A stretch of DNA of 47,097 nt from positions 1 through 47,097 of IMG/VR virus record IMGVR_UViG_3300017963_000093; one strand, written 5' to 3'. Source of the stretch: a virus. The translations under genes were made by a program, and so were the position numbers. Positions within the stretch are counted from its first letter, which is position 1. The number at the start of each line of letters is the position of its first letter. The notes beneath the pieces are model-generated. The model was not told the origin of the DNA and ran no database searches. It saw nothing but the letters and a program-made list of their open reading frames with translations. Positions 783 through 39,779 of this stretch are shown here, in pieces.

Positions 783-1213
783 GCGGTCAGAAGAACGATC
801 AAGATAAGATCCAGCTCGAGCTCCTGGACCCGGCCTTCTTGATGGGAGTTGGCGAGATCATGACCTTCGGCGCCAAGAAGTACGCCAAGTACAATTGGAT
901 GGAGGGGATCGAGGCGAGCCGGTTGTTCGGGGCCCTCATGCGGCACATGTGGGCGTTTTGGGATGGGGAGGACATGGACCCGGAGAGTGGCAAGCCCCAC
1001 CTGTGGCACGCCGGGTGCTGTCTCATGATGCTGAACCGGATGTTTCACAACCGGCCGGACCTGGACGACCGGCCTAACTTTAACGGGATGGTTCCCTCAA
1101 ATTACTGTCATATATGCGGAACGACAGTGAAACATGACTATTTAGGGATGGACAAGCCGGCGCAGTGCTACTGTGGAGAATTGAAAAATGAAACTACTGA
1201 TAGTGGGAAGTGA
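779..1213 (+). CDS. DUF5664 (dATP/dGTP diphosphohydrolase-like, MazG-type) protein with C-terminal zinc ribbon
   Basis: 144 residues. The N-terminal two thirds show the DUF5664 pattern: LLDPAFLMGVGEIMTFGAKKY near the start, then YNWMEG, an R-x-x-x-A-(L/x)-x-R-H helix (LFGALMRHMWAFW), DxExG and HLWHAGCCLMML. This all-alpha MazG-like family removes pyrophosphate from purine dNTPs in the members studied. The C-terminus adds a CHIC...CYC pair that looks like a zinc ribbon. It is coupled by ATGA overlap to the gene before and overlaps the SDR gene after it by 26 bases. Role inferred: dNTP-pool adjustment. The related MazZ of 2-aminoadenine phages comes with PurZ and DatZ, which are not seen here. 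Confidence 0.75.
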   Translation: MSGQKNDQDKIQLELLDPAFLMGVGEIMTFGAKKYAKYNWMEGIEASRLFGALMRHMWAFWDGEDMDPESGKPHLWHAGCCLMMLNRMFHNRPDLDDRPNFNGMVPSNYCHICGTTVKHDYLGMDKPAQCYCGELKNETTDSGK

Positions 1214-2099
1214 GGGCTACATTGGACGCGCCTTATGCCGCCGGTTTACTTTCCGGGATGATATTGAGCTGTTCCGTGTTGATCCTTGTGTTTACGGTCA
1301 GCCGCCTGCTACACCCGCAGTCCAGAAAATTTTCAAAACCAAAGACGTCGTCCGGTATATTGACAAAATCGTCCCGGACCATATCGTCTGGCTCGGCGCC
1401 TACGCACACGACCCGTCCGGGCGCATCAATACCACCATCGCTATTCGGAATAATGCTCGAAGGGTCGCCGTGGCTCTCTCCGGGACAGGCTGTCCTTACA
1501 CCGCTGTCTCGTCACTCTCCGTCTTCGCTGAAGGTGCATACCCAGAGTCTAAACGATATCTCGAGCAAGCTCTTGTCGCGGCCGGGGACTTTGGTGCCCG
1601 TGGATCCCTTCTTCGGTTCGGGACAGTGTTCGGCGTCCCGAATCCCGGCGACGCAGAGTCTTTTCGCGCACACCTCCTGCTCAATCGGATGTCCATCGAC
1701 GCGGTCACCAAAGGAAAGATTACCGTTACGCATCCAACTAAAAGGCGACCAGTCCTGGCTCTGCGTAAGGCCGTCCACGCCCTGGAGCGGGACATTTTCT
1801 CGGAGGGCCCCCGCGGCACCATTTCGAACCACTACGACACATGTGGCACACTTCAGGAGTTTGCCCAGCTCGTCCAGCTCAAGGTCGCCATGAAGAAGCC
1901 AGACAGTCCTGTTGAGATCGTGGTCCCCGACAACGCGCCGGACCTTGACAACCGGGACTACGGGTGGGGCGAGTTCGAGCCGATGGAGATTAACCTGGAG
2001 CTCAGTACCCTGATCCATTCGGTCGGAGTGTACGACGGCGCCGATCAGTTCAAGGCCCTGTACGGATTTGTGGAAAAGAATGAGGATGGAACGCTCTAA
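1188..2099 (+). CDS. NAD(P)-dependent sugar-nucleotide epimerase/dehydratase (extended SDR)
   Basis: 303 residues, normal for the extended short-chain dehydrogenase family. The Rossmann dinucleotide motif GSEGYIG is at residues 7-13, a serine stretch (VSSLS, 107-111) sits where the catalytic Ser/Thr belongs, and the YxxxK pair is Y118/K122 (YPESK). These enzymes epimerise, dehydrate or reduce nucleotide-linked sugars. A GGAGAA site precedes the ATG at 1188, which lies inside the end of the DUF5664 gene. The DegT aminotransferase two genes downstream is the usual partner: SDR makes a keto-sugar nucleotide and the transaminase aminates it. The precise sugar cannot be read from the sequence. Confidence 0.85.
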   Translation: MKLLIVGSEGYIGRALCRRFTFRDDIELFRVDPCVYGQPPATPAVQKIFKTKDVVRYIDKIVPDHIVWLGAYAHDPSGRINTTIAIRNNARRVAVALSGTGCPYTAVSSLSVFAEGAYPESKRYLEQALVAAGDFGARGSLLRFGTVFGVPNPGDAESFRAHLLLNRMSIDAVTKGKITVTHPTKRRPVLALRKAVHALERDIFSEGPRGTISNHYDTCGTLQEFAQLVQLKVAMKKPDSPVEIVVPDNAPDLDNRDYGWGEFEPMEINLELSTLIHSVGVYDGADQFKALYGFVEKNEDGTL

Positions 2100-2322
2100 A
2101 ACAATTATATTTACCCAGCCGGATCCCGCCGAGGTGAGGGCCACCTGGACGGGGTTTATGGCACAAGAGGATCTGATTGTTCCAGGATACGGTCGTTACT
2201 CGTACTGGGACATTGCACAAGCCCTCCACGCGGTGGAGTTTATCAAAACTAACCGGACTCTCCTTCATAAGCGAGGGTTCCAGCGTCGAATGAAAAAGGC
2301 AGGATGTAATGGAATTGTATAA
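2080..2322 (+). CDS. Small protein of unknown function between SDR and DegT genes
   Basis: 80 residues from the ATG at 2080 (GGAAAAG upstream; a second ATG lies at 2086 and a TTG at 2068). Not recognised. It is basic at the C-terminus (KRGFQRRMKKAGC), has an aromatic mid-section (GRYSYWDIAQALHAVEF) and no predicted membrane segment. It overlaps the SDR gene by 20 bases and the DegT gene by 14, so it is co-translated with the sugar enzymes and may serve the same pathway, but nothing in its sequence proves this. Confidence 0.6.
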   Translation: MRMERSKTIIFTQPDPAEVRATWTGFMAQEDLIVPGYGRYSYWDIAQALHAVEFIKTNRTLLHKRGFQRRMKKAGCNGIV

Positions 2323-3328
2323 ACCACCGCGACTTACGGGAAAGTACCTCGACAAAGTCTTGGCCTCCCGGTGGTTGACCGCGGGGCCCATGTGCGAGAG
2401 GTTCAGAGAGGCTGTAGCAGAGAAGCTAAAGGTGGGGCCCGACCGGATCGCGCTCGCGGCCCGGGCTACGAGTGGGTTCCAGGCGGTGCTGGATATGATT
2501 TGCTACCATGACGCGCTGGGGGAGGAGCCGGAGGACTATCCGACAATTGATTGTACGCACGCGACCTTTGTCGGGATTCGGCATGCGATCTCACATGCTG
2601 GGATGTGTACGGGCTGGGACCGGGACTGGCGGTCTCGGCCTGATATTGTGGTCAAAACTGATATTGGAGGACGGAGGCTGGCAATTGAAGATGAAGATAT
2701 GTCTTCCCGCTACTTTGTGGCGAATCGCTTACCTTATCCGAAATGGTATATTCACGACGCGTGTCACTCTTGGCTGCCTGATCCTGCCGCCGACTTTGCG
2801 GTCCTCTCTTGCTATCCAACGAAACCTGTGCCGGGCGCTGAAGGCGGGGTCGTGGTTTGTAAAGACCCAGAACACGCCCGGGAGATTGAATCTTGGTGTT
2901 CTTCTGGACTTTCTCCAGCGTTTAACCCCACAAGACTTGGAGGCACTGAACCAAGCGTACCTGGCCGAGAAACGCATCTCACAGACGTGGCGGCCGCGCT
3001 CAATCTTGAGGCGTTGGAGGTGTCGGATCGTTACATGGCTGGGATTCGGCTTTCGTGGCAGAAGCTGGCGCGTGCTGGACAGAATTGGGAGGTCCCTTTT
3101 CGGTGTCAGCCGTTGGTACCGTATCTCTTTCAAGTGGAAGTACGGGATGTGGCCGAAGTTCGTGCGGAGTTGGCGAAATGGGGCGTCCCGACTGCGTGGA
3201 ATTTTCCGCCGGCGCCGCTCGTGACTCTCCCGTGCCGGCCCGACATGGGGATCCGGGAGGCCGAGCTGATTATCAAGTTTACCCGGCGGGCCATTGAGGC
3301 TGTGGAAAGTCGACGAGTCGCAAACTGA
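2309..3328 (+). CDS. DegT/DnrJ/EryC1/StrS-type sugar aminotransferase
   Basis: 339 residues, slightly short for this PLP-dependent family (about 360-390). The N-terminal SRWLTAGP (20-27) matches the family's 'WLTTGP' signature, the PLP phosphate-binding stretch is ARATSGFQAVL (51-61), HDACHSW (149-155) matches the 'xDAAQS' motif with the PLP-ring aspartate at 150, and YPTKPVPGAEGG (169-180) holds the Schiff-base lysine K172. These enzymes aminate keto-sugar nucleotides with glutamate as donor. It ends the plus-strand block and is preceded by the SDR gene that would supply the keto substrate; the formyltransferase at 34668 could act on the new amine. The region around position 100 looks condensed compared with bacterial members. 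Confidence 0.85.
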   Translation: MELYKPPRLTGKYLDKVLASRWLTAGPMCERFREAVAEKLKVGPDRIALAARATSGFQAVLDMICYHDALGEEPEDYPTIDCTHATFVGIRHAISHAGMCTGWDRDWRSRPDIVVKTDIGGRRLAIEDEDMSSRYFVANRLPYPKWYIHDACHSWLPDPAADFAVLSCYPTKPVPGAEGGVVVCKDPEHAREIESWCSSGLSPAFNPTRLGGTEPSVPGRETHLTDVAAALNLEALEVSDRYMAGIRLSWQKLARAGQNWEVPFRCQPLVPYLFQVEVRDVAEVRAELAKWGVPTAWNFPPAPLVTLPCRPDMGIREAELIIKFTRRAIEAVESRRVAN

Positions 3329-21291: not shown

Positions 21292-23871
21292 CTAAGTTGT
21301 GATCAATGTTTTCATCTGATCGGCGAGGTCTTCAAAATTGAATCGTGCACACGCATCCAGGTGTATAGGAGTTCGGGTGTGCGTGCCTTCCAGGGCATTC
21401 GCCAGAACATTCGCGGCGTCCGACGGGTTATTAGGGTCGATAACCATCGCACCTCGGCATGTCTCTTTAAGGGCGGCCTTATCGGAGCAGAGTACAACCA
21501 GCCCCGCGGCCTGTGCCTCCATGGCTGCCATGCAGCTGATCTCCGGGAACCGTGTCGGATACAGCCACACACCAGCCGAGCAGAACTCCTTGGCGAGCTC
21601 CTCCCAGCCGACGTTCCCGTGCCACACGATCCGGTCGTCGGCGTCGCACGCCGCCGCGACGGCCTGCATGTACTCGTACATGTTTGCCTCCCGGGCTATA
21701 TCCGGTATGTGACAATACTCGTACTTTTGGGCATTCGTGAGGTACAGCTTGTTGAAGCCATAGAACAGATGAAGTTCACTATCCGGTACGTTGGCGGCCT
21801 GAAAGATCTGGATCGCGGAGAGGATACCACGGTCCGGTGAGGAGGCGTATACCACCTTGCGGGGGTTCCGGGGGATCCCGAAGTAGCGCTTGAACAGATC
21901 TGCGTCGATCCCGTTCCGGGTCACCTTCACTTTGTCGCCCAACATATTCAGGACCGGCCCGAGCGTCGATTTATGGTACTCGGACTGGACCCATACCTGG
22001 TCGGCCAGGGCTACCCGGGCCTTGGTCCATCGCTGGGGCGACTGGACGTCGTGACACCACAGGATCCGTTTCTTGGTCTTGTACGGCATCTCGAGCATTT
22101 CCGGGGCCCGCCAGTACACGATCGTATCCCGGGGCACGGCCTTGTCAAATGCGCCGAAGTGCTGCCAGTTAGCCCCGGTCTTGCTATCAATTCCACGCTG
22201 GTTCCGGGGAACGTTGGCGTAAACGGTAATGCAGAGGTCTCGCGCCTGTAAGCGTTTTGCGATCTCGATAACCATTTTTTCCGAGCCCCCGATCCCGATC
22301 TCGCCTGACCTCGGACCCCAGGCAGTAGGGGTGTCGCCGCAGTAAATGGTCACCTTCGGACCATCGCGGCCATCAGTCGGCTCGGTCTTGGCCAGGTGCA
22401 GCTTCTCGAGCGTGTCTGGGACCGCGTCCAAGTGAGACACGATCGCTCGCCCGATCCGCTGCGCCTCCTCCCCGCCCTTGGGCCGGGCGTTCACGACAAC
22501 ACGCTGAACGGACTTGATGAGATCCGTCTCGGCCACCCAGGAATTGATCACCTGTTCGATGTTGGCGGTGTCGGGATGGTTCGGATACCGTTCCTTCAGG
22601 TAATTGATCATCTGGAGGGCGAGTTCGGGCTGGTTCAGTTCCTTGTATGCCAGCGCAGCGATCTGGTACGGTAAGAAATGGATCTGGAGCGGGTTGTAGT
22701 TGTGCAGGCTACCGGACGGCTCCGGTAGCATTTTCCCAACATTGAACCAGTGGATCGCCTCCTGAAACCGGCCTAAGTGGTAGTACGCCCGTGCCATCTC
22801 GAAGTAGGCACGGGGATCTTCCGGTTTGATGACCTGACATTTCTGAAGCCAATCGATCGCGTCCAGGTGTCGCTTCGTCTTCTCGGTCTGGTAGATGATG
22901 GCAATGTACAGGGCCGCCGCGAACCGGTCGTCCCGGCTCCCGGACAGTTTGATCAGCTCCTTGTAGTAGTTGATCGCGTCGCCATCCAGGTCCAGGCCCC
23001 GGCACGCATTGCCGAGGTAGAAGATCGAGCGCGGATCTGGGTTGTTTCCGGCCTCCTCGAGCTCTCGGCGGATGATGACATAGTTCCGGATGTCGGACGC
23101 CCGGTCCTCGGAATGGTCCCTGAGGTGCTTGATCCCGGCCTTCAGGTCCTGGTAGAAGGCGGCGCCTTTCATTTGGGCGCCCTCCCGGGGGATGGCCGTT
23201 TCATGACACCGGCCCACCCAGCGGTACACGCGCCGGTCGATGACCCGTTCCCGCTTCAGGATCGAGGAAAGCGACCCATCATGCTTGTCAAAGCTGTATT
23301 GGTACGGGAGGAAAATGGCATCATACCGGCCCACGTCACGGTTGATCATGGCCCGGAAAGTGCCAGGATGTTCCTCGATGAAAATGTCATCGGCATCGAT
23401 CCAGAACTGGATGTCGTGTTTGGCGGCGTCCATTAGGATCTGCCGCGCTTCCGCAAAGTCCAGGACACAGCCTTCGGTCAGCTTCGTTTTCCCGTAGTGC
23501 TCAACCCAATCGGGGAGCCACTTCTCGACGTAGGGTTTGAAATCGTGGGACAGATCCGGACGCTCCAGGACCGTGGCCCCGAGCTTCCTGGCAACTTTAG
23601 CTGTCTTGTCCGTGCTTCCTGTGTCGAGAACTAAAAGCTCGTCGCAGGCGTGCAAAAAGTTCGCTTTCAGGCTCTTGATCGTCTCCGGAAGCGTCGTCTC
23701 GGCATTCTTGGCGATGATCGTTACTGAGACCGGGATTGAAGACTGCCCGATCTGAGTTGAAGGGCCGATCCGAATTGTCCTGACGGGTGCGGTGGTCCGC
23801 TCCTTCTTCTGAGTCGGTCCGCGATTGGCTTTTCTTCGAGCCTTTCTTTTTGCCTTTGTTTTGCGCGACAC
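21292..23871 (-). CDS. Double glycosyltransferase: GT2 + TPR + GT4
   Basis: 859 residues. After a very basic N-terminus (residues 1-25), a GT2 domain begins at about 46: SVTIIAKNAETTLPETIKSL, LVLDTGSTDKTAKVA and the metal-binding FWIDADDIF. A helical TPR-like region follows (about 300-440; YLGNACRGLDLDGDAINYY, AYYHLGRFQEAIHWF). A GT4 (GT-B) domain fills the rest: GIGGSEKMVIEIAKRL, WCHDVQSP, RNGIDADLF and the family glutamates in FPEISCMAAMEAQAAGLV. Two transferases in one chain could add two sugars in turn. The start is a GTG at 23871 with AGGAG upstream, inside the end of the previous ORF (275-base overlap). The setting between capsid and tail genes suggests virion glycosylation. Confidence 0.9.
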   Translation of the reverse strand: MSRKTKAKRKARRKANRGPTQKKERTTAPVRTIRIGPSTQIGQSSIPVSVTIIAKNAETTLPETIKSLKANFLHACDELLVLDTGSTDKTAKVARKLGATVLERPDLSHDFKPYVEKWLPDWVEHYGKTKLTEGCVLDFAEARQILMDAAKHDIQFWIDADDIFIEEHPGTFRAMINRDVGRYDAIFLPYQYSFDKHDGSLSSILKRERVIDRRVYRWVGRCHETAIPREGAQMKGAAFYQDLKAGIKHLRDHSEDRASDIRNYVIIRRELEEAGNNPDPRSIFYLGNACRGLDLDGDAINYYKELIKLSGSRDDRFAAALYIAIIYQTEKTKRHLDAIDWLQKCQVIKPEDPRAYFEMARAYYHLGRFQEAIHWFNVGKMLPEPSGSLHNYNPLQIHFLPYQIAALAYKELNQPELALQMINYLKERYPNHPDTANIEQVINSWVAETDLIKSVQRVVVNARPKGGEEAQRIGRAIVSHLDAVPDTLEKLHLAKTEPTDGRDGPKVTIYCGDTPTAWGPRSGEIGIGGSEKMVIEIAKRLQARDLCITVYANVPRNQRGIDSKTGANWQHFGAFDKAVPRDTIVYWRAPEMLEMPYKTKKRILWCHDVQSPQRWTKARVALADQVWVQSEYHKSTLGPVLNMLGDKVKVTRNGIDADLFKRYFGIPRNPRKVVYASSPDRGILSAIQIFQAANVPDSELHLFYGFNKLYLTNAQKYEYCHIPDIAREANMYEYMQAVAAACDADDRIVWHGNVGWEELAKEFCSAGVWLYPTRFPEISCMAAMEAQAAGLVVLCSDKAALKETCRGAMVIDPNNPSDAANVLANALEGTHTRTPIHLDACARFNFEDLADQMKTLITT

Positions 23872-24323: not shown

Positions 24324-25259
24324 TTAAGCGATGTAGGGCACGAACCCCGTCCCGCCTCCACCGGCCTTCTCGGTCCGGTAGATCATGGTCGCCTCGGCGC
24401 TGACCTGGAACCTGGTCCGGAGACCGTCCCTGGCGAGCGTCTCGGTTCTCAGCGGGGTGAGGAACCCAACCTCGAAGTAGCTCGGGTCGAGCAGGACCAC
24501 GGAGTTTCCGTAGGTCGTCTTCGAGGCACTTTTCAGCTGGTCGCGGCTGAAGTAGATGTCGACGTTGCCGAAGTCGCTCTCGTACTTGTCGACCACAAGC
24601 ATCTGCGTCTTCGCCATCGCGGGGATGTTGTAGCGCAGCTTCGTGGAGTAGAGCGAAATCGTCCGCTTGATGAGAGCGTTGACAAACGCCGTGTTGGGCC
24701 GGATGTCAACGTTGTTGTCCACGTACAGCTGGATCAGATCGCCGAAGACTTCCTCGGTGAGGGTCGTTCCGGAACTGTCCGTGAAGTTCGTGGAGAGGAC
24801 GTTCAGGAGCCCGCCGAACTGCCGGGCTGCACTGGTGGCACCGGTGGCCGCCGATCCGCGGTGGAGGGCGTGCTCGATGTCATTCAGTGTCGATTCGACA
24901 GCCTTCTGCTCCTGGTAGAGGTACATATCGTTGAAGCCCTTGTGCTCCACCGACCTCTGGGTGTCGGACACGTACCCCCAGCGAGCGAACTGCTGGACGT
25001 GCGTGAACGTACGGGAAGGAGTCGTTTGCGCCTGGTCGGTCGCCTGGACACCTTCGATGTAGGCGTTGTGCGCCCTGGAAGGAAGGGAATCCTCCATCCA
25101 CTCGATGAAGGTTGTGTTGACCCGGGACTTCCGGAAAAGGCCAAGCGCCGGCCGGTCGACCGGGCTGACATTCTCCACGAAGTCACGCAGGTCCTCAGGG
25201 ATCGACCCACCCTGCGGGCGGGCCGCGGCAGTAAACTCCTGCCAAGTCAAAAGAGCCAT
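24324..25259 (-). CDS. Major capsid protein, SU10-like (DUF5309 type)
   Basis: 311 residues, typical for this HK97-fold family. The pattern agrees: FVENVSPVDRPALGLFRKSRV near the start, EWMEDSLP, an EG(V)QATD loop, YVSDTQRSVEHKG, then DIEHALHRGSA and a long helical/beta C-terminal half. The C-terminus has a Gly-rich tail. It follows the scaffold gene after 3 bases and is followed by a terminator, the classical arrangement. AGGTAA precedes the ATG. Subunits build the icosahedral head; there is no large N-terminal delta domain, consistent with a separate scaffold. Confidence 0.85.
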   Translation of the reverse strand: MALLTWQEFTAAARPQGGSIPEDLRDFVENVSPVDRPALGLFRKSRVNTTFIEWMEDSLPSRAHNAYIEGVQATDQAQTTPSRTFTHVQQFARWGYVSDTQRSVEHKGFNDMYLYQEQKAVESTLNDIEHALHRGSAATGATSAARQFGGLLNVLSTNFTDSSGTTLTEEVFGDLIQLYVDNNVDIRPNTAFVNALIKRTISLYSTKLRYNIPAMAKTQMLVVDKYESDFGNVDIYFSRDQLKSASKTTYGNSVVLLDPSYFEVGFLTPLRTETLARDGLRTRFQVSAEATMIYRTEKAGGGGTGFVPYIA

Positions 25260-26530: not shown

Positions 26531-26812
26531 TTACACGATCTCCACGTTGATCGGGGCCGACAGGCCCTCGAGTGTGAACTGAACCTTGATGGACCAGACG
26601 CCGGGGCCGAGGGGGCCGATGGCCCGGACCCGGACCTTATAGACCGACCCGACCACCACAGCCGCGCCGTCGATCACACTGCCGATTGGGATCGAGGTCC
26701 CGGCCACTGTTTTCACAGCCAGAACATTCCCGCTGGTGTCCGAGAGCTCGACTTCATAGTTGATGGCGCCGCCCACGGCATCCCAGGTAACAACACTGTT
26801 GATGTTTGCCAT
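26531..26812 (-). CDS. Fibronectin type III-like head protein
   Basis: 93 residues covering one Fn3-like domain: VTWDAVGGAINYEVELSDTS carries the family W and Y positions, and YKVRVRAIGPLGPG matches the 'YxVRVRAxxxxGxG' strand. A strong AGGAG site precedes the ATG. Single Ig/Fn3 domains encoded between portal and capsid genes are usually head decoration or cell-surface adhesion proteins. Confidence 0.65.
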   Translation of the reverse strand: MANINSVVTWDAVGGAINYEVELSDTSGNVLAVKTVAGTSIPIGSVIDGAAVVVGSVYKVRVRAIGPLGPGVWSIKVQFTLEGLSAPINVEIV

Positions 26813-26820
26813 TTCTTCTC

Positions 26821-28923
26821 CTACGGAGGGTTTGCAGGCTGCTGCCCGGACTGGGCAACAGTCTGGAACATTTGTTGAATCAGTGCGGCCTGTTCCGGCG
26901 TACGCACCACGAGCTTGGCCATGTTGCGGTCAAGGGTATTGAAGTACCACTTGATGAGTTCGTGTTTGTTCACCAGCCCCGATGTGTCGTTCAGGAACGC
27001 CCCCAGAGCCTCTCGGGCGCGGGCCATGGCCAGCTGTCGGGACGTATTCGCCGGGGTGCCCGCCGGGACGATGTCATAGTCGTGGGCAATCTCGTGCTTC
27101 TTCATGAGCCGGGGCATGTCTTCGCCGATCACTCGGAAGTACTCCTCGTCCGGGCCGAAATCAAGCAGGAGGTGCCACAGCTGTTTGTGGACCTTTTTCA
27201 TGTTGGCCTGGAGCAGCCTCGCGTCCTGGCCGAATATGGACTGGGTCTGCTGCATGATCGCGTCGACCTCGGTGGCGGTCCGGCGCTCGGCCGTGCCTTC
27301 CGCCAGGACACCCGGGTCGAAGACCCCGATGTACTCCTCCGCGTCTCGGGACGTGATGTTTTCTTCGTTGATCGAGGCCAAGAGATTGGACGTGTCGAAT
27401 GTGAGCGGGGCGATATCGCCGGGTTGTGAAACTGGGATGATCGAGCCCGGCATGTACTTGATGTTCCGCTTCATCTCGTTGCCCGTCACGCGCATCGCCA
27501 TCATCGGTGAGAGCATGATCTGACCGGCGTCGAGCCGAGCATTATGGAGCTTGTTCTTTGTCGCCTGGTGGACCGAAAGGTGCTCTGCAATTCCGCGGGA
27601 ACCATAGGGGCGGTTCGATCGGTGCTCGAACTCGTGGCGTACCACCGGCCACTCGGAAAACGAGAACGGCAACGCATACAGAGCCAGAATAGTCCCCCCG
27701 AACGGTCCTGTATCGGAGCCCTCTCTCGGCTCGGTGCGGAGATCGGGATGGTACCAGAGCCGGCACCGTTCCTTGATACCGTCCCCGTTGATATCGATCT
27801 TACAGTACACTTCGAGAAAGTCGTCCTGGTTCGGCTCCTCGACCCGACCGTTATCGATTCCGTCCGATCGGTCCAGGACCGTGGTGATATTGAGCCGATT
27901 CCCAACGCTCAGGCCCTCGAAGTTGTTGTTCCGTTCCGGGTCGCTCATGGCCCGGGACTTCATCTTCTCTACCACGCCGGCGACCGCTTGTGGGATGAAG
28001 TGCCCGTCGACGGCCATTTTCATCAGGTCATCGGCGCTGAACCGGTGACGGAAGGCAATGTACTCGGCGTCGTCCACTTTCTGATTCCGGGGCGGCTCGA
28101 TCGCGTCCAGGGGGCTGACAGCAACCCAGGACAGCTTGTCGTGCCGCACGATCCGGTAGTAGATCTTGACTTTCTCGGCCCCGGCCAGGATCTTCTCGGT
28201 GACTTGGACGATCTGGTCGTACTCTAAAGGGTTGTCTTGTCGAAGGTTATATTCGTCCTGGAGCGTGTCCATGACGAATTGTTCGGGGGTTGTCGGTGCC
28301 GGGATCTGGTCCAACGCGTTCGCGGGCGCCTGTCCCGCGTCAATGGCCTGCTGGGCTTCAGTGCGGGCCTGCTCAACCCGGGCGTTAAACTGCTCCACCG
28401 CGGCCTCGACACCTTGCGGGAACAGGGACCGAGCGAAAATGATCCGGCATTGGCGCTCGGTCTGATAGTTCCAGCCCTGGATCGTATAGCCCTTGCCGTG
28501 CTGGGCCACGTACTCGAGGAGCTCCATAACGGTGTCCTCGACGTTCTCGATCGAATTGAACTTGTAGTGATAGTACGCCTCGACGTCGTCCTTGGCCCGG
28601 ACCCCCGCGGTGTTGAGTGGGAAAAAGTGGGCCACCGGATCGGACTGGGTAATGAGCGCGGCCATGGACGGTTTCCACCGGCGGATCACTTTATCGACCA
28701 GGGGCCAGTTGTGGTTGTTGGCCCCTGGCCAGGGGAACACTTTCTTGCGCCGGATCCCGAGTCTTTGACGGAACAGCTTCTCCTGCTTATGCATCCAGGT
28801 GTGTCGGGCCGAGGCGGCCTGCTTGATGCGCCGGTCCAGGTCCTTGACCTGGATCAAAATGGACTCACCGCCCATGTTCCCGAGCGTGCTCAAATCGAGC
28901 GGATTCTGTCTTGAAAGACTCAT
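26821..28923 (-). CDS. Portal protein
   Basis: 700 residues, in the range of P22/SU10-like portals. Typical features: an N-terminal helical part with FPWPGANNHNWPLVDKVIRR and TQSDPVAHFFPL, a central beta/helix region (LSWVAVSPLDAIEPPRN), and a wing followed by the clip/stem helices (FDTSNLLASINEENITSRDAEEYIG). It ends with a Q/P-rich tail. A 12-subunit ring would carry the packaging motor and adaptor. Its ATG overlaps the stop of the glycosyltransferase-like gene at 28920 (ATGA), so modification cassette and head genes share one transcript. Confidence 0.8.
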   Translation of the reverse strand: MSLSRQNPLDLSTLGNMGGESILIQVKDLDRRIKQAASARHTWMHKQEKLFRQRLGIRRKKVFPWPGANNHNWPLVDKVIRRWKPSMAALITQSDPVAHFFPLNTAGVRAKDDVEAYYHYKFNSIENVEDTVMELLEYVAQHGKGYTIQGWNYQTERQCRIIFARSLFPQGVEAAVEQFNARVEQARTEAQQAIDAGQAPANALDQIPAPTTPEQFVMDTLQDEYNLRQDNPLEYDQIVQVTEKILAGAEKVKIYYRIVRHDKLSWVAVSPLDAIEPPRNQKVDDAEYIAFRHRFSADDLMKMAVDGHFIPQAVAGVVEKMKSRAMSDPERNNNFEGLSVGNRLNITTVLDRSDGIDNGRVEEPNQDDFLEVYCKIDINGDGIKERCRLWYHPDLRTEPREGSDTGPFGGTILALYALPFSFSEWPVVRHEFEHRSNRPYGSRGIAEHLSVHQATKNKLHNARLDAGQIMLSPMMAMRVTGNEMKRNIKYMPGSIIPVSQPGDIAPLTFDTSNLLASINEENITSRDAEEYIGVFDPGVLAEGTAERRTATEVDAIMQQTQSIFGQDARLLQANMKKVHKQLWHLLLDFGPDEEYFRVIGEDMPRLMKKHEIAHDYDIVPAGTPANTSRQLAMARAREALGAFLNDTSGLVNKHELIKWYFNTLDRNMAKLVVRTPEQAALIQQMFQTVAQSGQQPANPP

Positions 28924-29633
28924 TTTTTACCGTTCAGTAACTGCTTGTAGGCCGGCATCTCCGACTCAAATTTCACCAGCTGGGGGTCCTCCACCAGCGC
29001 CATGGTCGCGGCGTCTATTTTTCCTGCTTCTTTGTAGGCTGCCCAGACTCGGGCCCGCTCGGCGGCGTCGAGGTATCCGACGTCGAGGAGCCGGCTATTT
29101 GTGACCACGCGCACGGAGGCAGGGTCGTCATGGATTCCCACTGGGCAGTGTATGATCCGACTTTCGGTGTCCGGGAAGGACGTACCAGGGCGGTCCTTAA
29201 AAAAGACAGGCGAGACATGCGGTGGGATCCTTTCGTTTGTGTGTTCCAAGTCGTCCCAAAAGAACGCCTTCTTCATGTCGATGATGTCGGCGCCCATGGT
29301 CATGTACTGCTTCACTTCGTCCGGGTCCTCCAGGAGGTGGTCGTCGTCCCAGAAGCCAATGTACTTGGGATTGTACTTACGGATCTGTTCGAGCTGCCAC
29401 TGGCGCATGACCATAAAGTGCTCGCCGTTCTCGTCGACGACGGGAAACGGAGCCCTTTGACTAACAGCGCCCTCAGTACCATCCAAGATCGAGGCGATGT
29501 CCAACTCGCACCGGTCCTCTGTCAGCTGAATAATGCTATTGGGCCAGGCCTCACTGATCTGTTCCACGATCAGCCGGAGCGGCCACGGGCGCTTGTGGAC
29601 CAGGATCATCACGCCGAGGTCAACGTTCTGCAT
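28920..29633 (-). CDS. Glycosyltransferase-like protein (GT-A fold)
   Basis: 237 residues. It opens with a beta strand (LGVMILVHKRPWPLRLIVEQ) like GT2-type transferases and carries a DDDH metal-site candidate in YIGFWDDDHLLEDPDEV at about residue 90-105. A second acidic stretch (FFWDD) follows. The nucleotide-sugar donor cannot be told. It overlaps the methyltransferase gene by 14 bases and the portal start by 4. It may be one of the enzymes that decorate the virion or the DNA. Confidence 0.55.
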   Translation of the reverse strand: MQNVDLGVMILVHKRPWPLRLIVEQISEAWPNSIIQLTEDRCELDIASILDGTEGAVSQRAPFPVVDENGEHFMVMRQWQLEQIRKYNPKYIGFWDDDHLLEDPDEVKQYMTMGADIIDMKKAFFWDDLEHTNERIPPHVSPVFFKDRPGTSFPDTESRIIHCPVGIHDDPASVRVVTNSRLLDVGYLDAAERARVWAAYKEAGKIDAATMALVEDPQLVKFESEMPAYKQLLNGKK

Positions 29634-30234
29634 AAATCATCCCCAGCTTCGTGTCGATCTCGGTCAGCTTCCAGTCTCCCAAGTGGTTTAGTACTGCCCG
29701 GCGCACGTCTATGAACTGACCCGGGTCGAACTCCTGGCCTTGGACGGCCTTGCCGCAGTCGTGGAACAACATGATATCGATCCGGGTCTCGTCCCGGATC
29801 TGTTTGATGTCCTTCGCGGCCCCCTCGTAGCTATGGTCACCGTCAATGAAGGCCCAGTTGCACTTCCAGTGCCCGATCGGCATGTCCTCGGCCTTGGCCG
29901 AAAGGGCCCAGATCTCAGGCCATTCCGGGTGGTCTTTCCAACGCTGGAGACAGTCAATTGTGTAGACCGTGCTGGCCAAGGTGGCGCCGTCGATGTCGTT
30001 TCCGCGCCGGAGCCCTTCGGCAATATACCGTGTGGAGACGGCCTGATCAGTGCCGATCTCTACAGCCGAGCCCTGCATGAAAGCCAGATTGGCCAGGACC
30101 TTGCCCTCGTCGTGAAACACCGAACCGTGCCCTTCAGGCTGGTGGAACTGAGGGGGTCCCGTAAAGTGATGGTCCTGTGGCTCGAACGAGCACCCAAAAG
30201 ATTTTATGAACTCGTCAACTGAAACCTTCCTCAC
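29620..30234 (-). CDS. SAM-dependent methyltransferase, class I (sugar O-methyltransferase-like)
   Basis: 204 residues from a GTG at 30234, which overlaps the previous stop as GTGA. The SAM site is AVEIGTDQAVSTRYIAEGL, and AFIDGDHSYEGAAKDIKQI matches the acidic 'DGDHxYxxxxxD' signature of the macrocin-O-methyltransferase / Methyltransf_24 group; DIMLFHDCG follows. Members methylate sugar hydroxyls or act near glycan genes. It sits in a cassette with two glycosyltransferase-like proteins and a HAD phosphatase, which supports a glycan substrate. Not a DNA methyltransferase: the NPPY/DPPY-type motif is absent. Confidence 0.75.
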   Translation of the reverse strand: MRKVSVDEFIKSFGCSFEPQDHHFTGPPQFHQPEGHGSVFHDEGKVLANLAFMQGSAVEIGTDQAVSTRYIAEGLRRGNDIDGATLASTVYTIDCLQRWKDHPEWPEIWALSAKAEDMPIGHWKCNWAFIDGDHSYEGAAKDIKQIRDETRIDIMLFHDCGKAVQGQEFDPGQFIDVRRAVLNHLGDWKLTEIDTKLGMIYAER

Positions 30235-30482
30235 GGCTTCCGTTCCCAGCGGGTACCCCGCCAAATGCCGGTGCCTTCCCGACGGATTCCTCCGCACAGG
30301 TGACAGGGGCTGGCCGGATGGTAGGACCAATAATAACCAGTAGCGCCGCAGTCTTGGCAAACCGTTACATTGGTCCAGCCAAGACAAGCACCGTCCCCAC
30401 GAGCCCAAGCCGACGGTTTGAATTGGCCAGGTTCCGGCGGTGGGCCGTAGAGCCTCCGCCACAATTTAGAAAGTAGCTTCAT
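30231..30482 (-). CDS. Small zinc-ribbon protein in the glycan cassette
   Basis: 83 residues. CQDCG and CHLCG (about residues 42 and 59) make a four-cysteine zinc ribbon; the N-terminus is basic (KLLSKLWRRLYGPPPEPG), the C-terminus Arg/Trp-rich. It resembles the 53-residue protein at 19301. Overlaps both neighbours by a few bases. Function unknown; perhaps a nucleic-acid- or partner-binding accessory. Confidence 0.6.
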   Translation of the reverse strand: MKLLSKLWRRLYGPPPEPGQFKPSAWARGDGACLGWTNVTVCQDCGATGYYWSYHPASPCHLCGGIRREGTGIWRGTRWERKP

Positions 30483-31083
30483 ACGCGGCGATCCTACTGT
30501 CTACCTTTTCAAGGATATCCCCGAGGTTAAAACCGGCTGGACGAGCCCATACCGGATCGTTATAGTGTCGTGACCAGAAGAGGTGCTCCCCTTTGTCACC
30601 GACCACCGTACCGTAGCTATCAGGCCAAGGGTCCCGATTAGCCAAGAGCGTCGCCCCTTCGAGGAGATTTGCTGGGTCATTGCACGGGCCACCGGCAGCG
30701 AGATTGACTGGGAGGCGATCACGATGTATCGCTTCGAGGTCGAACCCGAGCCACCAGGCGCCGGGGTAGCCGTGGGCGGTTTGTTTTCCGTCTGGGGTTC
30801 TTGTGACATACTCTGCGGCCTCGATCGGGGCCCGCGGCGGGTCGAGCCCGCCGGGGCCGGGTAGAAAGTCGTGTTCCGTGATAACGTGGTACCGGCCCGG
30901 GAGTTCTTGGATCCCTTCCCAGATCAGAGCCAGGCAGTGTTGATGTTGTAACTGGGCGCCAGGATTTTCCCACCAGACCAGCCCCATGCGGTCCCGGTGT
31001 TGGTACGCGAGCTTGTTCCAGATGGCCCTGAGCCTATCGTGACGCGGGCCCTCAAAGCACTTGATTAGATGGAACGTGATCAT
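30466..31083 (-). CDS. Putative glycosyltransferase (GT-A-like)
   Basis: 205 residues from the ATG at 31083, chosen for its ATGA overlap with the HAD gene. The N-terminus (MITFHLIKCFEGPRHDRLRAI) and YHVITEHDFLPGPGG at about residue 66-80 suggest a GT-A fold with an E-H-D metal motif, and AYPGAWW-like GYPGAWWLGFDL follows. The family is not certain. Context (HAD phosphatase before, methyltransferase after) supports a carbohydrate role. Confidence 0.4.
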   Translation of the reverse strand: MITFHLIKCFEGPRHDRLRAIWNKLAYQHRDRMGLVWWENPGAQLQHQHCLALIWEGIQELPGRYHVITEHDFLPGPGGLDPPRAPIEAAEYVTRTPDGKQTAHGYPGAWWLGFDLEAIHRDRLPVNLAAGGPCNDPANLLEGATLLANRDPWPDSYGTVVGDKGEHLFWSRHYNDPVWARPAGFNLGDILEKVDSRIAAYEATF

Positions 31084-31361
31084 TCCGGGAACCCTGTGGT
31101 ACTGTCCAGGAGATTGATCTTGTCGTCTACGATCAGATACTCGTCCGCCAAGGGTTTGGCGATTGCTCCGTGGATCCGGACAAATGACGTGAGCTGGGCG
31201 ACCCGGCACTTGTTAGCCCCGCACGAGAACAGATAGATATCGTAACCGTCCTCCGCGAGCTTGAGAATGCCTTCCTTGGCATTGGGCAGCATCTCATCGG
31301 AGCCGTTTGGGAACACGACCCCATCCAGATCAAGGAGTGCAACTTTGCGCGGCGAGCTCAT
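31080..31361 (-). CDS. HAD-superfamily phosphatase (short)
   Basis: 93 residues from the ATG at 31361, fixed by the ATGA overlap with the stop of the small basic gene. Motif I is LLDLDGVVFPNG (D-x-D), motif II lies in YLFSCGANK, and a late acidic DEYLIVDDK is motif IV. Such short HAD proteins without a cap domain hydrolyse small phosphorylated substrates, including sugar phosphates. Its place in the modification cassette suggests a sugar-phosphate or nucleotide-sugar step. Shorter than most HAD enzymes. Confidence 0.7.
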   Translation of the reverse strand: MSSPRKVALLDLDGVVFPNGSDEMLPNAKEGILKLAEDGYDIYLFSCGANKCRVAQLTSFVRIHGAIAKPLADEYLIVDDKINLLDSTTGFPE

Positions 31362-31492
31362 CGCCCCCGTTTCGGCTTCCACCCGGTCTCCCGCAACGTG
31401 CCATAAATGTACCGACGCGCCCTCTCCGAAGTAGTGGAACCGAACTTCTTTTTTGCTTTTTGTTTCAGTTCGCGTTCCAATTTCTTAGGCAT
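31358..31492 (-). CDS. Small basic phage protein (44 residues)
   Basis: 44 residues with GGAGG 8 bases before the ATG and an ATGA overlap with the HAD gene. Sequence pattern MPKKLERELK ... GTLRETGWKPKRGR resembles a widespread tiny phage protein found near packaging genes. Highly basic, probably nucleic-acid-binding. Function not known. Confidence 0.7.
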   Translation of the reverse strand: MPKKLERELKQKAKKKFGSTTSERARRYIYGTLRETGWKPKRGR

Positions 31493-31528: not shown

Positions 31529-31771
31529 TTACTTCAACTTTTTCTGGATCTTACGCACCAGAACGTACCCGCCCGCCAACAGACCGAGCGCCCCGGCCAC
31601 AATGGCGCCCCAGGGACCGAAACCCTCAGCGGTATCGATCACAGTATTGATAGGCGCGTCCGGGGCCACCACGCCAGTTGTGGGATCGTACCCAACCACC
31701 CCGTCAATGGTCCCGCACCCGTACAGGAACGTAACCATAAACACAAAAATCGCTGCGTAGAGCTTCTTCAT
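31529..31771 (-). CDS. Small lipoprotein with C-terminal membrane segment
   Basis: 80 residues. A type II signal peptide is seen: basic start (MKK), hydrophobic core and lipobox LYGC at about 16-19. A second hydrophobic segment (GAIVAGALGLLAGGYVLV, about 55-72) and a basic tail follow. One lipid anchor and one membrane span are compatible with a spanin-like, superinfection-exclusion or holin-like role. It is encoded between terminase and glycan genes. The stop overlaps nothing downstream; a 36-base gap follows. Confidence 0.6.
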   Translation of the reverse strand: MKKLYAAIFVFMVTFLYGCGTIDGVVGYDPTTGVVAPDAPINTVIDTAEGFGPWGAIVAGALGLLAGGYVLVRKIQKKLK

Positions 31772-31968
31772 TTTCCTTTTCTCCGTCGGGCCTTTGTTGC
31801 CGCCCGGTTTGCGGCACCTGTTACGTCACCGTGCCGGCGGCGCATCTCTTTATCAAGGGCCCTTTGAAGGGCACTGTCTTTGTACTCTGAACCGAGCTGT
31901 TTTTTAATTCCCTCTACGGTGTACTTGTTGTCACGCCCAAATCCTTGTGGTCTGCGTTTCTTACCCAT
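31768..31968 (-). CDS. Small basic protein after the large terminase
   Basis: 66 residues from the ATG at 31968 (GGAGTG site upstream). Rich in K and R, especially at both ends (GKKRRPQGFGRDNK, NRAATKARRRKGK); probably binds nucleic acid. It overlaps the terminase stop by 8 bases and the lipoprotein gene by 4. No family recognised. Confidence 0.55.
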   Translation of the reverse strand: MGKKRRPQGFGRDNKYTVEGIKKQLGSEYKDSALQRALDKEMRRRHGDVTGAANRAATKARRRKGK

Positions 31969-33517
31969 AATCACTCCATAGATCGTCAGCTGTGTTTTCC
32001 TTTTCCAAATCTTCGGGCGTCCAGCGTTGGAGCGCCTTTACCTCGGCGGCGGTTAGCGGCGGTGGACACAGGACAGTGTACGCGACAGTGTCCATGGGGT
32101 CCTTGAATTCTTCACTGACCTTCTTGAACAGGCCCTTGACGGGGTTGTCCACGTCGAGGTACCCGTAGTGGCGAAAGGCCTTGTCTAAGTTCGTCAGGCT
32201 CCGGAACACCATGATCTGGGGCTGGTTCGACGGCCCGATCTCGAACCGTTTGTCCCACCGGAGCATCTTGGAAATTACTTGGTGTCGGTACTCGAGGTTC
32301 CCGGTGTTCGGGACGTGTGCGTCGAAGTCGAGCCCGACGTCGGCCATTTGGTCGACCCAGCACGTTTCTTTGTACCCGTGCCGTTGATGCTCTGCTTTAC
32401 CAAATCGTGGATCGCAGATGCGACGGCTTGCTGGAAAACGGCCCTCGGCATTTCTAATGATTGTTGCGTACTCGACAGGTGTAAGACCACCCGACCGCGC
32501 TTTGAAGAAATCGTAATTGGGCCACTCTCGGTAAAAATAGTAAGATTGTGTGTTGGGATCATATGCCCACCAGAGCATGAACGCCGGCCGCTTGTGGTGC
32601 GGGTCAACCGTCAAGCCACGGACCCAGTCCCTGGGGATGGCAAAGTCGTCGACCAGGTGCACATCGGGATCGTACTCTTCATAGACCCGGTCGCCCATTA
32701 CCTCGAACTCGCCCCGGAGCCGGGCGGCCTTCTCCCGTTCCGGCCACTCGCCGGCCTCCTCGAACGCCTTCCGCTTGTCGGCGGTCATGGCCGGGTTGTC
32801 CCGCTGCACCACCTGGACGATGTACACGTCGTCGGGCGGCTCCCGGTAGAATGGCATCATCCAGGCGGACCGGGCCCCGAGCGGCGTTAGGGTGAACCAC
32901 ATCGGCCCCAGGTTCGCTGCGAGCCGGGCCTGCATGGCGTTGTAGATCTTTTGCCGGACTGGTTCGTCGCACCACCACCAGTCCGCCACAAACCCCTCAA
33001 ACTGGAAATCGTCCTGCTCCTCGGAACTGAAAATTACCCGGCTCCCGTTCGGGAGCGTGAACTTCTCCGGGATCCCACCCTGGCCCCGGACTACGTGGAG
33101 TCCGGACTTTCGGCGTCGCAAAGCCTGAGGTAGAATCCCTTCAAGGAACGGCCACAGGTTCTCACCAATTCCCCTTCCACGAGAAAGTCCGGTGGTAATG
33201 ACTCCAAGATTCGGGACTTTGATGGGGATCCCGTCCGGACGTCGGATCCAGAAGGCTGGATCGATGTGATCTCGAGGAGGAAGGTCACCATCCGGGGTGA
33301 GTCGGAGATCTGGAATTTCCCAGAAACGGTACCCGTAACTATGTCCGAGCGCTTCGTGACCCCCGGCAGTAGTCTTGCCACTCTGGTTAGCACCGAAGAA
33401 AAACCGGCGACGATACGTTTTACCAGCTTCATGAAACTGTGTCTGTTTCCTGTGGTTCTTGATCAGGTTCCGGTAGTACAGTAGGGGCGCCGCTTTGATC
33501 CTCCGGTCCAGGATCAT
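31961..33517 (-). CDS. terL: Terminase large subunit (packaging ATPase/nuclease)
   Basis: 518 residues from the ATG at 33517 (AAGGCG upstream); a GTG at 33595 would add 26 residues. Walker A is FGANQSGKTT (about 41-50), Walker B WWWCDEP (about 180-186), with the catalytic glutamate, and the coupling stretch FTLTPLG follows. The C-terminal RNase H-like nuclease shows acidic sites in GLTVDPHHKR, ICDPRFG and DPMDTVAYTV. The enzyme drives DNA through the portal and cuts the concatemer. It overlaps the small terminase by 89 bases. Confidence 0.9.
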   Translation of the reverse strand: MILDRRIKAAPLLYYRNLIKNHRKQTQFHEAGKTYRRRFFFGANQSGKTTAGGHEALGHSYGYRFWEIPDLRLTPDGDLPPRDHIDPAFWIRRPDGIPIKVPNLGVITTGLSRGRGIGENLWPFLEGILPQALRRRKSGLHVVRGQGGIPEKFTLPNGSRVIFSSEEQDDFQFEGFVADWWWCDEPVRQKIYNAMQARLAANLGPMWFTLTPLGARSAWMMPFYREPPDDVYIVQVVQRDNPAMTADKRKAFEEAGEWPEREKAARLRGEFEVMGDRVYEEYDPDVHLVDDFAIPRDWVRGLTVDPHHKRPAFMLWWAYDPNTQSYYFYREWPNYDFFKARSGGLTPVEYATIIRNAEGRFPASRRICDPRFGKAEHQRHGYKETCWVDQMADVGLDFDAHVPNTGNLEYRHQVISKMLRWDKRFEIGPSNQPQIMVFRSLTNLDKAFRHYGYLDVDNPVKGLFKKVSEEFKDPMDTVAYTVLCPPPLTAAEVKALQRWTPEDLEKENTADDLWSDYG

Positions 33518-34076
33518 CTGCGCCTTGTACGTCTGTTCCAGCCTCTGTCTGGTCGATAATTCTAAACTCGGCGGGGAGTCGGGCTGCGTTTTCACGAATA
33601 ATCCGGCGTAGGTCCTCGTCAGAGCAGGTGTCCAGCTTCACCCCTCCGGAGTATGAGTGCTTGTGTTCAACGACGCGACTGAGCTGGCCCATGCGTTCGT
33701 AGAACAGTTTGATCGCCGGCACGTCACCGCGCATGGCGGCCTGGAACAGGGCGGCATCGACCAGCCCGGCCCGGTGCCGGAAAATTTGATGAATCTGGCG
33801 ACTGACCCAGGCCATGGCCAGTGGATCAGCTATCGTGTCCCGGACCTCCGGCTCTGTCATCCCGGAGTAATCGGCGATCGCTACGAGCGTCGTACTCCCG
33901 GCAAGGAGGGCCTCCCCCATCCGGAGCACCGGTTCCGTAGGTACGAACCGGGCGAGCTCCTGATCGTCCACATTGAGGGCGGCTTCCCAGGCCTTCGCTA
34001 CTGCGGGCGAGAGCGCCGTGCGACGCTGGGGCTCGTTCTTTTTCTTTTGGCGGGTCCCGACCCGCTTCTTCGCCAT
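33429..34076 (-). CDS. terS: Terminase small subunit-like protein
   Basis: 215 residues. After a basic N-terminus, a helical region (LVAIADYSGMTEPEVRDTIA) looks like an HTH DNA-binding domain. RAGLVDAALFQAAMRGDVPA followed by IKLFYERMGQLSRVVE is the oligomerisation motif common in small terminases. The C-terminus is acidic and Pro/Gln-rich. It lies directly before the large subunit. The first part overlaps the GIY-YIG gene by 79 bases; GGGAAG precedes the ATG. Confidence 0.75.
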   Translation of the reverse strand: MAKKRVGTRQKKKNEPQRRTALSPAVAKAWEAALNVDDQELARFVPTEPVLRMGEALLAGSTTLVAIADYSGMTEPEVRDTIADPLAMAWVSRQIHQIFRHRAGLVDAALFQAAMRGDVPAIKLFYERMGQLSRVVEHKHSYSGGVKLDTCSDEDLRRIIRENAARLPAEFRIIDQTEAGTDVQGADDPGPEDQSGAPTVLPEPDQEPQETDTVS

Positions 34077-34425: not shown

Positions 34426-34674
34426 ATGAAACTGGAACGTGTTATAGAGCTTGCAGGTAAGTGGGGGTATGACGAGGAGTTAGGTCAGATATGGCTGGAG
34501 CGGGAAATGATCCTGAAAAAGGTGAACCGGGTCCCGCCACCGTGCCGGGAACGACGGCTCCGGTCTGTACTTAGGACAATCCAGGCCCGGATGCACCGGA
34601 AGGACCGGCCGCCCCAGGAGCGGACCGCGGGCCTGGCCGACTTCAGCCCAGACAAGATCCGGAGGAAATGGTGA
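34426..34674 (+). CDS. Hypothetical first gene of the plus-strand block
   Basis: 82 residues from the ATG at 34426 (CGGAAG upstream; a TTG lies 12 bases earlier). Rich in R, E and K, helical, with no recognised family. The stop overlaps the start of the formyltransferase gene. As the first gene behind a strong promoter it may be made early and act on the host, but its sequence gives no hint of how. Confidence 0.55.
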   Translation: MKLERVIELAGKWGYDEELGQIWLEREMILKKVNRVPPPCRERRLRSVLRTIQARMHRKDRPPQERTAGLADFSPDKIRRKW

Positions 34675-35261
34675 ACATACTCCTGCTCACATCCCCCTCA
34701 CGGCCCCGTACTTCGCCGCTGTGCGACTTTTTGGCCGTCCAGGGCTCGTTGAAGGTCGAAACCCGCAAACCCCGCCTGTGGGCTCCTGAGGCTCCTCAGT
34801 GGGATCTGATAATTAGCGACGGGTACCGGTGGATCATACCCCCCGACATGCTCGGGGCGGTCCGGCGCCCCCCGATCAACATCCACCTCGGGAACCCCCA
34901 GAACCGGGGCGTCTTCCCGAACTTCTTCTGTTGGCTAGAGGACCGGGCCCCGGGCTTCATGATCCACGAAATGACCAACACGATCGACAACGGGCGCCTG
35001 TACGCGGCCGGTTGGCACCAGTACAAACCCAAGGTCCTGGAAGACGAGACCTTACGAACCACCTGGAAAGATTTGTGGGAGTACGCCTTTATGCGGTTCC
35101 GAAAGTCTTGGGTCCACATTGAACGGGGCGTCCCGTTAAGTAACAGGATCCTAGCGGTCCATGACAAACCCCACACTATGAAAGAATTCAGGCGTTGGTT
35201 TTCTCAGTGCTCGAAAGGCTGGGACACGCCTGTGGAGGAAGTGAGATGTCTGAAGATATGA
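34668..35261 (+). CDS. N-formyltransferase (sugar or methionyl-tRNA formyltransferase fold)
   Basis: 197 residues, matching the catalytic domain only. INIHLGNPQNRGVFPNFF (70-87) matches the 'INxHxSLLPxxRGxxP' signature; the catalytic triad N71, H73 and D107 (in TIDNGRL) is present, and DLIISDGYRWIIPPDML precedes it as in formyltransferases. The donor would be N10-formyl-tetrahydrofolate. There is no C-terminal tRNA-binding domain, which argues for a sugar-amine substrate such as that made by the DegT enzyme at 2309. Start at ATG 34668 or GTG 34671 after GGAGG. Confidence 0.8.
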   Translation: MVNILLLTSPSRPRTSPLCDFLAVQGSLKVETRKPRLWAPEAPQWDLIISDGYRWIIPPDMLGAVRRPPINIHLGNPQNRGVFPNFFCWLEDRAPGFMIHEMTNTIDNGRLYAAGWHQYKPKVLEDETLRTTWKDLWEYAFMRFRKSWVHIERGVPLSNRILAVHDKPHTMKEFRRWFSQCSKGWDTPVEEVRCLKI

Positions 35262-39170: not shown

Positions 39171-39779
39171 ATGAAAAACGGGTACAAAATCGAACCGGGG
39201 GCCAACCTGAGCGGAGCCGACCTGCGCGGAGCCGACCTGCGCGGAGCCAACCTGAGCGGAGCCGACCTGCGCGGAGCCAACCTGAGCGGAGCCGACCTGC
39301 GCGGAGCCGACCTGTACGAAGCCAGCCTGTGCGGAGCCAACCTGTACGAGGCCGACCTGTACGGAGCCATCCTGTACGAGGCCGACCTGAGCGGCGCCAA
39401 CCTGCGCAGAGCCAACCTGCACGAGGCCAGCCTGCGCGAGGCCAACCTGTATGGGGCCAAACTCCCCCACTACAAAATCTGTCCCGAAACCGGCGCCTTT
39501 GACGCCTGGAAGGCAGTCCACCACCGGGGTGGGAAGGCCGTGATCAAGATCCGGATCCCAAAACGCGCTAAGAGGTGCTCGTCGTTGGTAGGGCGTAAGT
39601 GCCGGGCCTCTTTTGTTAAAGTCCTGGAGGGTGCCGGGATTTCCCCTACCCACTCAAGGAAACTAACTTACATAAAGGGCCAAATTGTGAAGGCCCACGA
39701 TTTTTCCGACGATCCCCGTGTCGAGTGTGCACCGGGGATCCACTTTTTCATGACCAAGCAAGAAGCCGAGGAGTGGTAA
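39171..39779 (+). CDS. Pentapeptide-repeat protein with C-terminal DUF5758
   Basis: 202 residues. Residues about 10-100 are uninterrupted pentapeptide repeats of the A(D/N)LxG/xA type ([20 protein letters not shown] ...), which fold into a right-handed quadrilateral helix that can mimic DNA. The C-terminal half ([36 protein letters not shown]) matches DUF5758, often attached to such repeats in phages. Possible roles are gyrase or host-enzyme binding, or protection; not shown. It has its own strong promoter and ribosome site. The DNA repeats of 15 bases are coding, not CRISPR-like. Confidence 0.85.

Follow-up and report, generated by a model that had tools for sequence, protein, structure and literature searches.

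Only a small number of tailed-phage isolates have documented virion glycosylation; the best cases are mycobacteriophages, in which glycans are reported on capsid and tail-tube proteins, for example in phage Che8 (according to the passages of PMC11256854 and PMC12619734 that cite Freeman et al. 2023); in the related mycobacteriophage Maravista the glycosyltransferase (GT) genes lie near the genome end (PMC11256854). A064R of PBCV-1 is a GT-GT-methyltransferase protein that acts on the capsid glycan (PMC9614988), and FlmG is a protein joining tetratricopeptide repeats (TPR) and a GT, in which the TPR binds the protein acceptor and selects flagellin for glycosylation (PMC7591256). Here we analyzed IMG/VR virus record IMGVR_UViG_3300017963_000093, an uncultured SU10-like podovirus of 47 kb (47,097 nucleotides, also G000 in our set; the whole record is called the window), in which an insert of packed genes separates the terminase large subunit (TerL) from the portal. 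The insert encodes two GTs, GTa and GTb, and a third one, GTC, is encoded beside the major capsid protein (MCP). We infer that the insert belongs, with good probability, to a system by which the phage glycosylates its own virion proteins, and that it forms the portal-side half of that system, a reading that includes the acceptor, the sugar, the order of steps and the benefit.

Eight packed open reading frames (ORFs) are found in the minus strand between TerL (31961..33595, minus strand; Terminase_6N 4.7e-8), the upstream boundary of the insert, and the SU10-type portal protein (26821..28923, minus strand; SU10_portal 5.4e-16), its downstream boundary. Six of them had been named by an earlier reading of the sequence (hereafter the original prediction) and are present there, overlapping or nearly so; the insert is nevertheless larger than described, since it takes in two more ORFs, one with a lipobox and one basic (68 aa), for a TerL-portal gap of ~3.0 kb. 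Neighboring genes overlap by 4-25 nt (4 nt for both the phosphatase-like gene with GTb and GTa with the portal), and the GC content of the insert (0.57-0.60) is the same as that of the genome (0.587). The portal, capsid and adaptor proteins fall into SU10 families of Pfam, and the record ends in direct terminal repeats of 123 bp, thus the genome is probably complete. Because the genes share the strand of the head genes and overlap, and neither a minus-strand terminator nor a minus-strand promoter above chance was detected between 26.5 and 34.5 kb (the promoter scan covering the sigma-70 consensus only), late co-expression with the head genes is likely, as had been predicted from the sequence. 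PADLOC gave no match on the window, therefore no defence role is indicated by family.

Searches of IMG/VR with single proteins (TerL and GTa) retrieved nothing but another contig belonging to this virus (L001; 99.98% over 14 kb). Relatives were found by profiles, that of GTC yielding 80 loci that were kept and those of portal and MCP adding more. Sixteen lineages of the clade (portals less than 90% identical between any two, the window counting as one lineage) had both TerL and portal in view, and in all 16 the gap measured 1.1-3.3 kb; outside the clade its median was 7.5 bp, exceeding 1 kb in 3 of 42 loci, which bears out the claim that both genes are normally adjacent. A Mann-Whitney test on gap length gave p 1e-7, a value that ignores relatedness and is not taken as proof. 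A tblastn comparison of GTa, GTb, the methyltransferase and the formyltransferase with a phage collection (50,697 records for GTa and GTb) gave no match, and the MCP profile found no relative among GTDB genomes, so no host is assigned.

GTa (28920..29633, minus strand) is a 237 aa protein whose AlphaFold2 model, built from the clade alignment, had a mean predicted local distance difference test (pLDDT) score of 92.0. A phmmer match to COLGALT1 (E 0.09) was distrusted until the structure search agreed: Foldseek matched the model to COLGALT1 (E 5.9e-7) and SunS (1.4e-6), whereas by VIA the best match was WrtF (Z 14.7, root-mean-square deviation (rmsd) 3.5, 173 aligned), with Z of at least 8 in 860 of 997 chains, a broad range of GT-A enzymes that includes SunS/ThuS, TarP, GtrB and ArnC. 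Residues H13, R15 and D96-D98 are invariant, the DDD being kept in 13 aligned members with identities down to 18%; together with the fold searches, this identifies GTa as a GT-A-fold protein with a DxD-type motif. Family-library scans gave no sequence-family support for either GTa or GTb, thus the GT-like calls made originally are upheld by structure and not by sequence families. Homologues of GTa were found in 18 further contigs. In 15 of the 16 lineages the gene is found in the TerL-portal gap; in 12 of them its stop falls within ~35 nt of the portal start, mostly overlapping it (by 4 nt in the window, L016, L019 and L029). The divergence of GTa follows that of the portal (Mantel r 0.83, permutation p 1e-4). 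Judged by sequence comparison, GTa is a core gene of the clade.

GTb (30466..31083, minus strand; 205 aa) has conserved TExDFLP and HLFWSRH motifs, the ExD standing where classical GT-A enzymes have DxD. Its model, obtained in the same way (pLDDT 92.6), has a GT-A fold and had domain 1 of PBCV-1 A064R (2p73) as best match in the PDB by both Foldseek (1.6e-4) and VIA (Z 10.0, rmsd 4.0, 164 aligned, 6% identity). UGGT is the second family by VIA (Z 9.2) and the lead of A064R over other GT-A families is less than 1 Z; the likeness of the predicted structure is one of fold kinship, from which the same substrate does not follow. Homologues were detected in 13 further contigs, and GTb is present in nine of the 16 lineages, once upstream of TerL (L023); it is thus common in the clade, by its gene positions less strictly kept in place than GTa. 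Between the close relatives L019 and L021 the ratio of nonsynonymous to synonymous substitution rates (dN/dS) was 0.09 for GTa, 0.12 for GTb and 0.02 for the portal, higher in the GTs than in the portal and far below 1, values which indicate purifying selection on both.

The third enzyme, GTC (21292..23871, minus strand; 859 aa), was left out of the original gene set, which covered genes of the insert and also omitted the sugar-nucleotide genes found elsewhere in the genome. GTC has a GT2-TPR-GT4 architecture (Pfam GT2 2e-10, TPR 1.9e-8, GT group 1 3.9e-8), and the profiles closest to its N-terminal domain are those of GmaR (1.9e-24) and SunS (1.7e-18), both protein glycosyltransferases; by these sequence matches it combines a SunS/GmaR-type GT2 domain with TPR. 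The DxDD of GT2 and the EISC region of GT4 are conserved in three aligned members. The SU10-type MCP (24324..25259, minus strand; SU10_MCP 4.9e-51) is a candidate acceptor, and GTC lies 0.3-5 kb downstream of it in 72 of 73 contigs, never upstream; these loci were partly chosen by GTC itself, so the figure holds for phages that carry GTC. When loci were selected by capsid, and in few cases by portal, a GTC-like gene was found in 8 of the 48 that extended 4 kb or more downstream. GTC distances track those of the portal (Mantel r 0.93), and on these comparisons GTC is a core gene downstream of MCP.

The predicted sugar-supply genes are in the plus strand. An NAD-dependent sugar-nucleotide epimerase/dehydratase-like protein (1188..2099; Pfam Epimerase 1e-8) has a 38% homologue in G009, where it adjoins a DegT gene; in the window a DegT/PseC-like sugar aminotransferase (2309..3328; Pfam 1.3e-13, best NCBIfam match PseC 2e-9) follows, and DegT is found in six of seven clade records of at least 40 kb. 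A PseJ-like sugar N-formyltransferase (34668..35261) matches PseJ 6ci2 by phmmer (5e-17) and the NCBIfam Qui4N formyltransferase (3e-8), and its family-level match to PseJ spans the catalytic NxH...D region. G009 has in contiguous order a deoxyribosyltransferase-like gene, a dGTP-diphosphohydrolase-like gene, the formyltransferase, the epimerase and DegT; the window keeps this order minus the formyltransferase, which sits elsewhere. By their families, these three enzymes point to a 4-amino-4,6-dideoxy sugar, perhaps formylated. The insert is thus, as far as gene content indicates, part of a dispersed pathway having GTC by the capsid gene and sugar-nucleotide genes in the early region.

Aminotransferase, epimerase and formyltransferase genes for amino sugars are typical of O-antigen pathways, GtrB and ArnC are among the structural neighbors of GTa, and a lipobox protein adjoins the insert; all of this would suit a modification of the host surface, in which the enzymes alter the lipopolysaccharide or capsule of the host late in infection so that virions avoid debris or other phages are excluded. 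We consider this unlikely, although it is the most probable of the alternatives. No membrane-spanning stretch was found in the GTs, which are for that reason likely, from their predicted sequences, to act in the cytoplasm; no flippase or polymerase was seen among the annotated genes, GTC resembles protein GTs, and head genes enclose the loci. The co-location with head genes, the GmaR/SunS-like GT by the capsid gene and the lack of membrane helices thus favor the virion over the host as the likely target, in line with the original prediction.

Since phage GTs often act on DNA (PMC12619734), they could also glycosylate modified bases in the phage genome. Directly before the sugar genes the window has genes with nucleoside deoxyribosyltransferase-like and dATP/dGTP diphosphohydrolase domains (378-1213), an arrangement that is the same in G009 and might serve such a hypermodification. 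However, neither a thymidylate-synthase-type (hydroxymethylase) gene nor a PurZ-family gene was found in the genome, the GTs are in the head operon and not in the replication region, and GTC has TPR repeats and a protein-GT-like domain, all of which makes DNA an improbable target.

The remaining genes of the insert are more variable. The S-adenosylmethionine (SAM)-dependent methyltransferase (29620..30234, minus strand, with the GTG start at 30234 set from relatives; Methyltransf_24, PF13578, 1.3e-7) is the only one of the six named ORFs exceeding a curated Pfam cut-off (32.9 bits against 26.3); together with the GT folds it agrees with the claim of glycan-decoration enzymes. A homologue, 44% identical, lies between the capsid gene and GTC in L017 and another one downstream of GTC in L085, and other Methyltransf_24 genes are placed by coordinates within the late operon of L016, L022, L026 and L092. 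The minimal HAD-like phosphatase (31080..31382, minus strand; 100 aa, DLDGVV motif) has weak Pfam, NCBIfam and PHROG matches (Hydrolase_6 0.003 and HAD-IIIA 0.0016, both under the curated cut-off), its homologues, 37% identical, being directly after GTC in L019-L021. Because both families are found in the TerL-portal gap of the window and on the MCP/GTC side in those relatives, the two loci are linked. The 93 aa gene g93 (26531-26812) is also seen in different places: in L030 it lies within the TerL-portal gap, in L019 and L020 it follows MCP, and in L025 it follows GTC. A zinc-ribbon-like protein (30231..30482, minus strand; 83 aa, CxxC...CxxC) had no homologue in a search among relatives, and none was found for a basic 44 aa ORF preceded by GGAGG (31358..31492, minus strand), for which no profile search was made; both are putative genes, proposed from ORF packing. 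By their distribution, methyltransferase, phosphatase and zinc ribbon are exchangeable or variable cargo.

Next to TerL the insert has a lipobox protein (31529..31771, minus strand; 80 aa, C-terminal hydrophobic segment), possibly a lysis or exclusion protein, and a basic 68 aa ORF (31768..31974, minus strand) that overlaps the TerL end; no sequence homologue of either was found among the relatives searched. Similar lipobox ORFs are seen right after TerL in most of the clade, among them those of L016, L017, L092, L023 and L026-L031, where place and layout are kept but detectable sequence is not.

The mobility of the methyltransferase, phosphatase and 93 aa genes among relatives, and the adjacency of TerL and portal in most other SU10-like contigs, could mean that the insert is a mobile cargo island, acquired as a unit between both genes and not firmly tied to the virion. 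In the more distant L042 (2178-3137) and L050 (1678-2589), two of the three outside loci with a gap above 1 kb, a different GT4-like gene, with a YASS motif as in the C-terminal half of GTC, fills the same gap; to judge from these two sequences, a GT may have come to lie beside the portal on more than one occasion. This explanation also has little probability: for GTa, which keeps its place and tracks the portal, it is refuted, the insert has the GC content of the genome, and it shows neither a promoter of its own above chance nor a terminator within the limits given above. Relatives do not have the genes present or absent as a unit, as the original prediction had conceived them, since GTa, GTb and the mobile families are distributed each in its own way. 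Its accessory nature holds for the methyltransferase, phosphatase and zinc ribbon, which vary or move, but not for GTa and, less strictly, GTb, which are conserved in position. The original prediction had named conservation of position in many phages, together with a known structural role, as what would refute it; of these, the position is conserved across the clade, while no structural role is known for the genes. That GTa or GTb might be catalytically dead GT-fold proteins, acting as structural or assembly factors by the portal, is highly improbable: the tight overlap and co-divergence of GTa with the portal and the ExD of GTb would fit, but the invariant DDD of GTa and the methyltransferase and sugar-nucleotide genes accompanying both GTs do not.

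Returning to glycosylation of the virion, the sugar-attaching enzymes in the head operon suggest, on the basis of genes and predicted structures, that the particles are coated with an unusual modified sugar. From what is seen directly (gene content, folds, catalytic motifs, conserved head-operon positions and purifying selection) a scheme can be drawn. Early in infection, the epimerase-like protein and the PseC-like aminotransferase would make an NDP (nucleoside diphosphate)-4-amino-4,6-dideoxy sugar, which the PseJ-like enzyme would N-formylate. Late in infection, the TPR segment of GTC would bind a structural protein, its GmaR/SunS-like GT2 domain would attach the first sugar and its GT4 domain would perhaps extend the glycan; GTa and GTb, produced along with the portal, would add more sugars, possibly the formamido sugar, and the Methyltransf_24 enzyme would cap the glycan by O-methylation, by analogy with PBCV-1. 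The best reading is thus a formylated and/or methylated amino sugar on the virion, where we infer both acceptor and sugar, and the benefit could be masking, stability or adsorption. The fullest version is tentative, and we regard it as less probable than the system as such: a largely self-contained pathway with one early and two late loci, placing an N-formylated, O-methylated 4-amino-4,6-dideoxy sugar on the phage's own head or tail proteins by means of a flagellin-type protein GT and a GT fold of chlorovirus-capsid type, a convergence of phages on giant-virus-style capsid glycosylation.

Several points weigh against this reading. GTb distances do not track those of the portal (Mantel r 0.18, p 0.23), and GTC could sit beside MCP simply because late expression is convenient there. 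Just 2 of 15 records showed the formyltransferase, and matches of the DegT protein to solved structures are weak. The epimerase is without a close solved relative, therefore the exact sugar cannot be named. Most comparison records are fragments and come from one collection.

In this uncultured SU10-like lineage the GTs occupy constant positions in the head operon, with one of them overlapping the portal, and are under purifying selection. If the reading is true, an entire environmental lineage of phages would permanently have glycosylated virions, instead of acquiring the trait now and then as cargo, and this would bear on how the particles adsorb, how stable they are and how they are recognized. 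The three-gene core named here, GTa, GTb and GTC, makes the question testable by expression.

Three further features of the window lie outside these loci. A tail-region protein with seven FG-GAP repeats (14795-16696) has similar genes in L018, L019, L023, L031 and L092; a 2237 aa gene that closes the late region (4054-10767), with homologues in G009 and G003, possibly encodes an internal virion or ejection protein; and a pentapeptide-repeat gene (39171-39779) contains strong internal DNA repeats.

Compared with known systems, the SU10-like uncultured podovirus ctKR88 (MW202524) also has a GTC homologue after MCP in the late operon, behind which additional GT and methyltransferase genes are annotated; in contrast to the window, its TerL and portal are directly adjacent and no GTa or GTb was found. 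GTC shares its GT2 profile match with GmaR and SunS and its TPR segment with FlmG; in FlmG, however, the TPR domain is N-terminal and the GT domain is of the GT-B type, whereas GTC has an extra C-terminal GT4 half and is encoded in a phage head operon. With PBCV-1 A064R, the best PDB match of GTb, the window shares the combination of two GTs and a methyltransferase, although here they are separate genes, the identity is 6%, and PBCV-1 is an algal virus with N-glycans. The likeness to mycobacteriophages of the Che8 type is in phage-encoded GTs decorating, here by prediction, head or tail proteins, the glycans having been seen there and the genes alone here; the GTs of the window are recognized as such, GTa and GTC by intact motifs together with fold or profile and GTb by fold. 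For GTb, gp87 of Mycobacterium phage Ardmore gave a weak fold match, which is no more than a lead. Unlike in Maravista, two GT genes of the window are in the TerL-portal gap and one follows MCP, accompanied by sugar-nucleotide, methyl-transfer and formyl-transfer enzymes.

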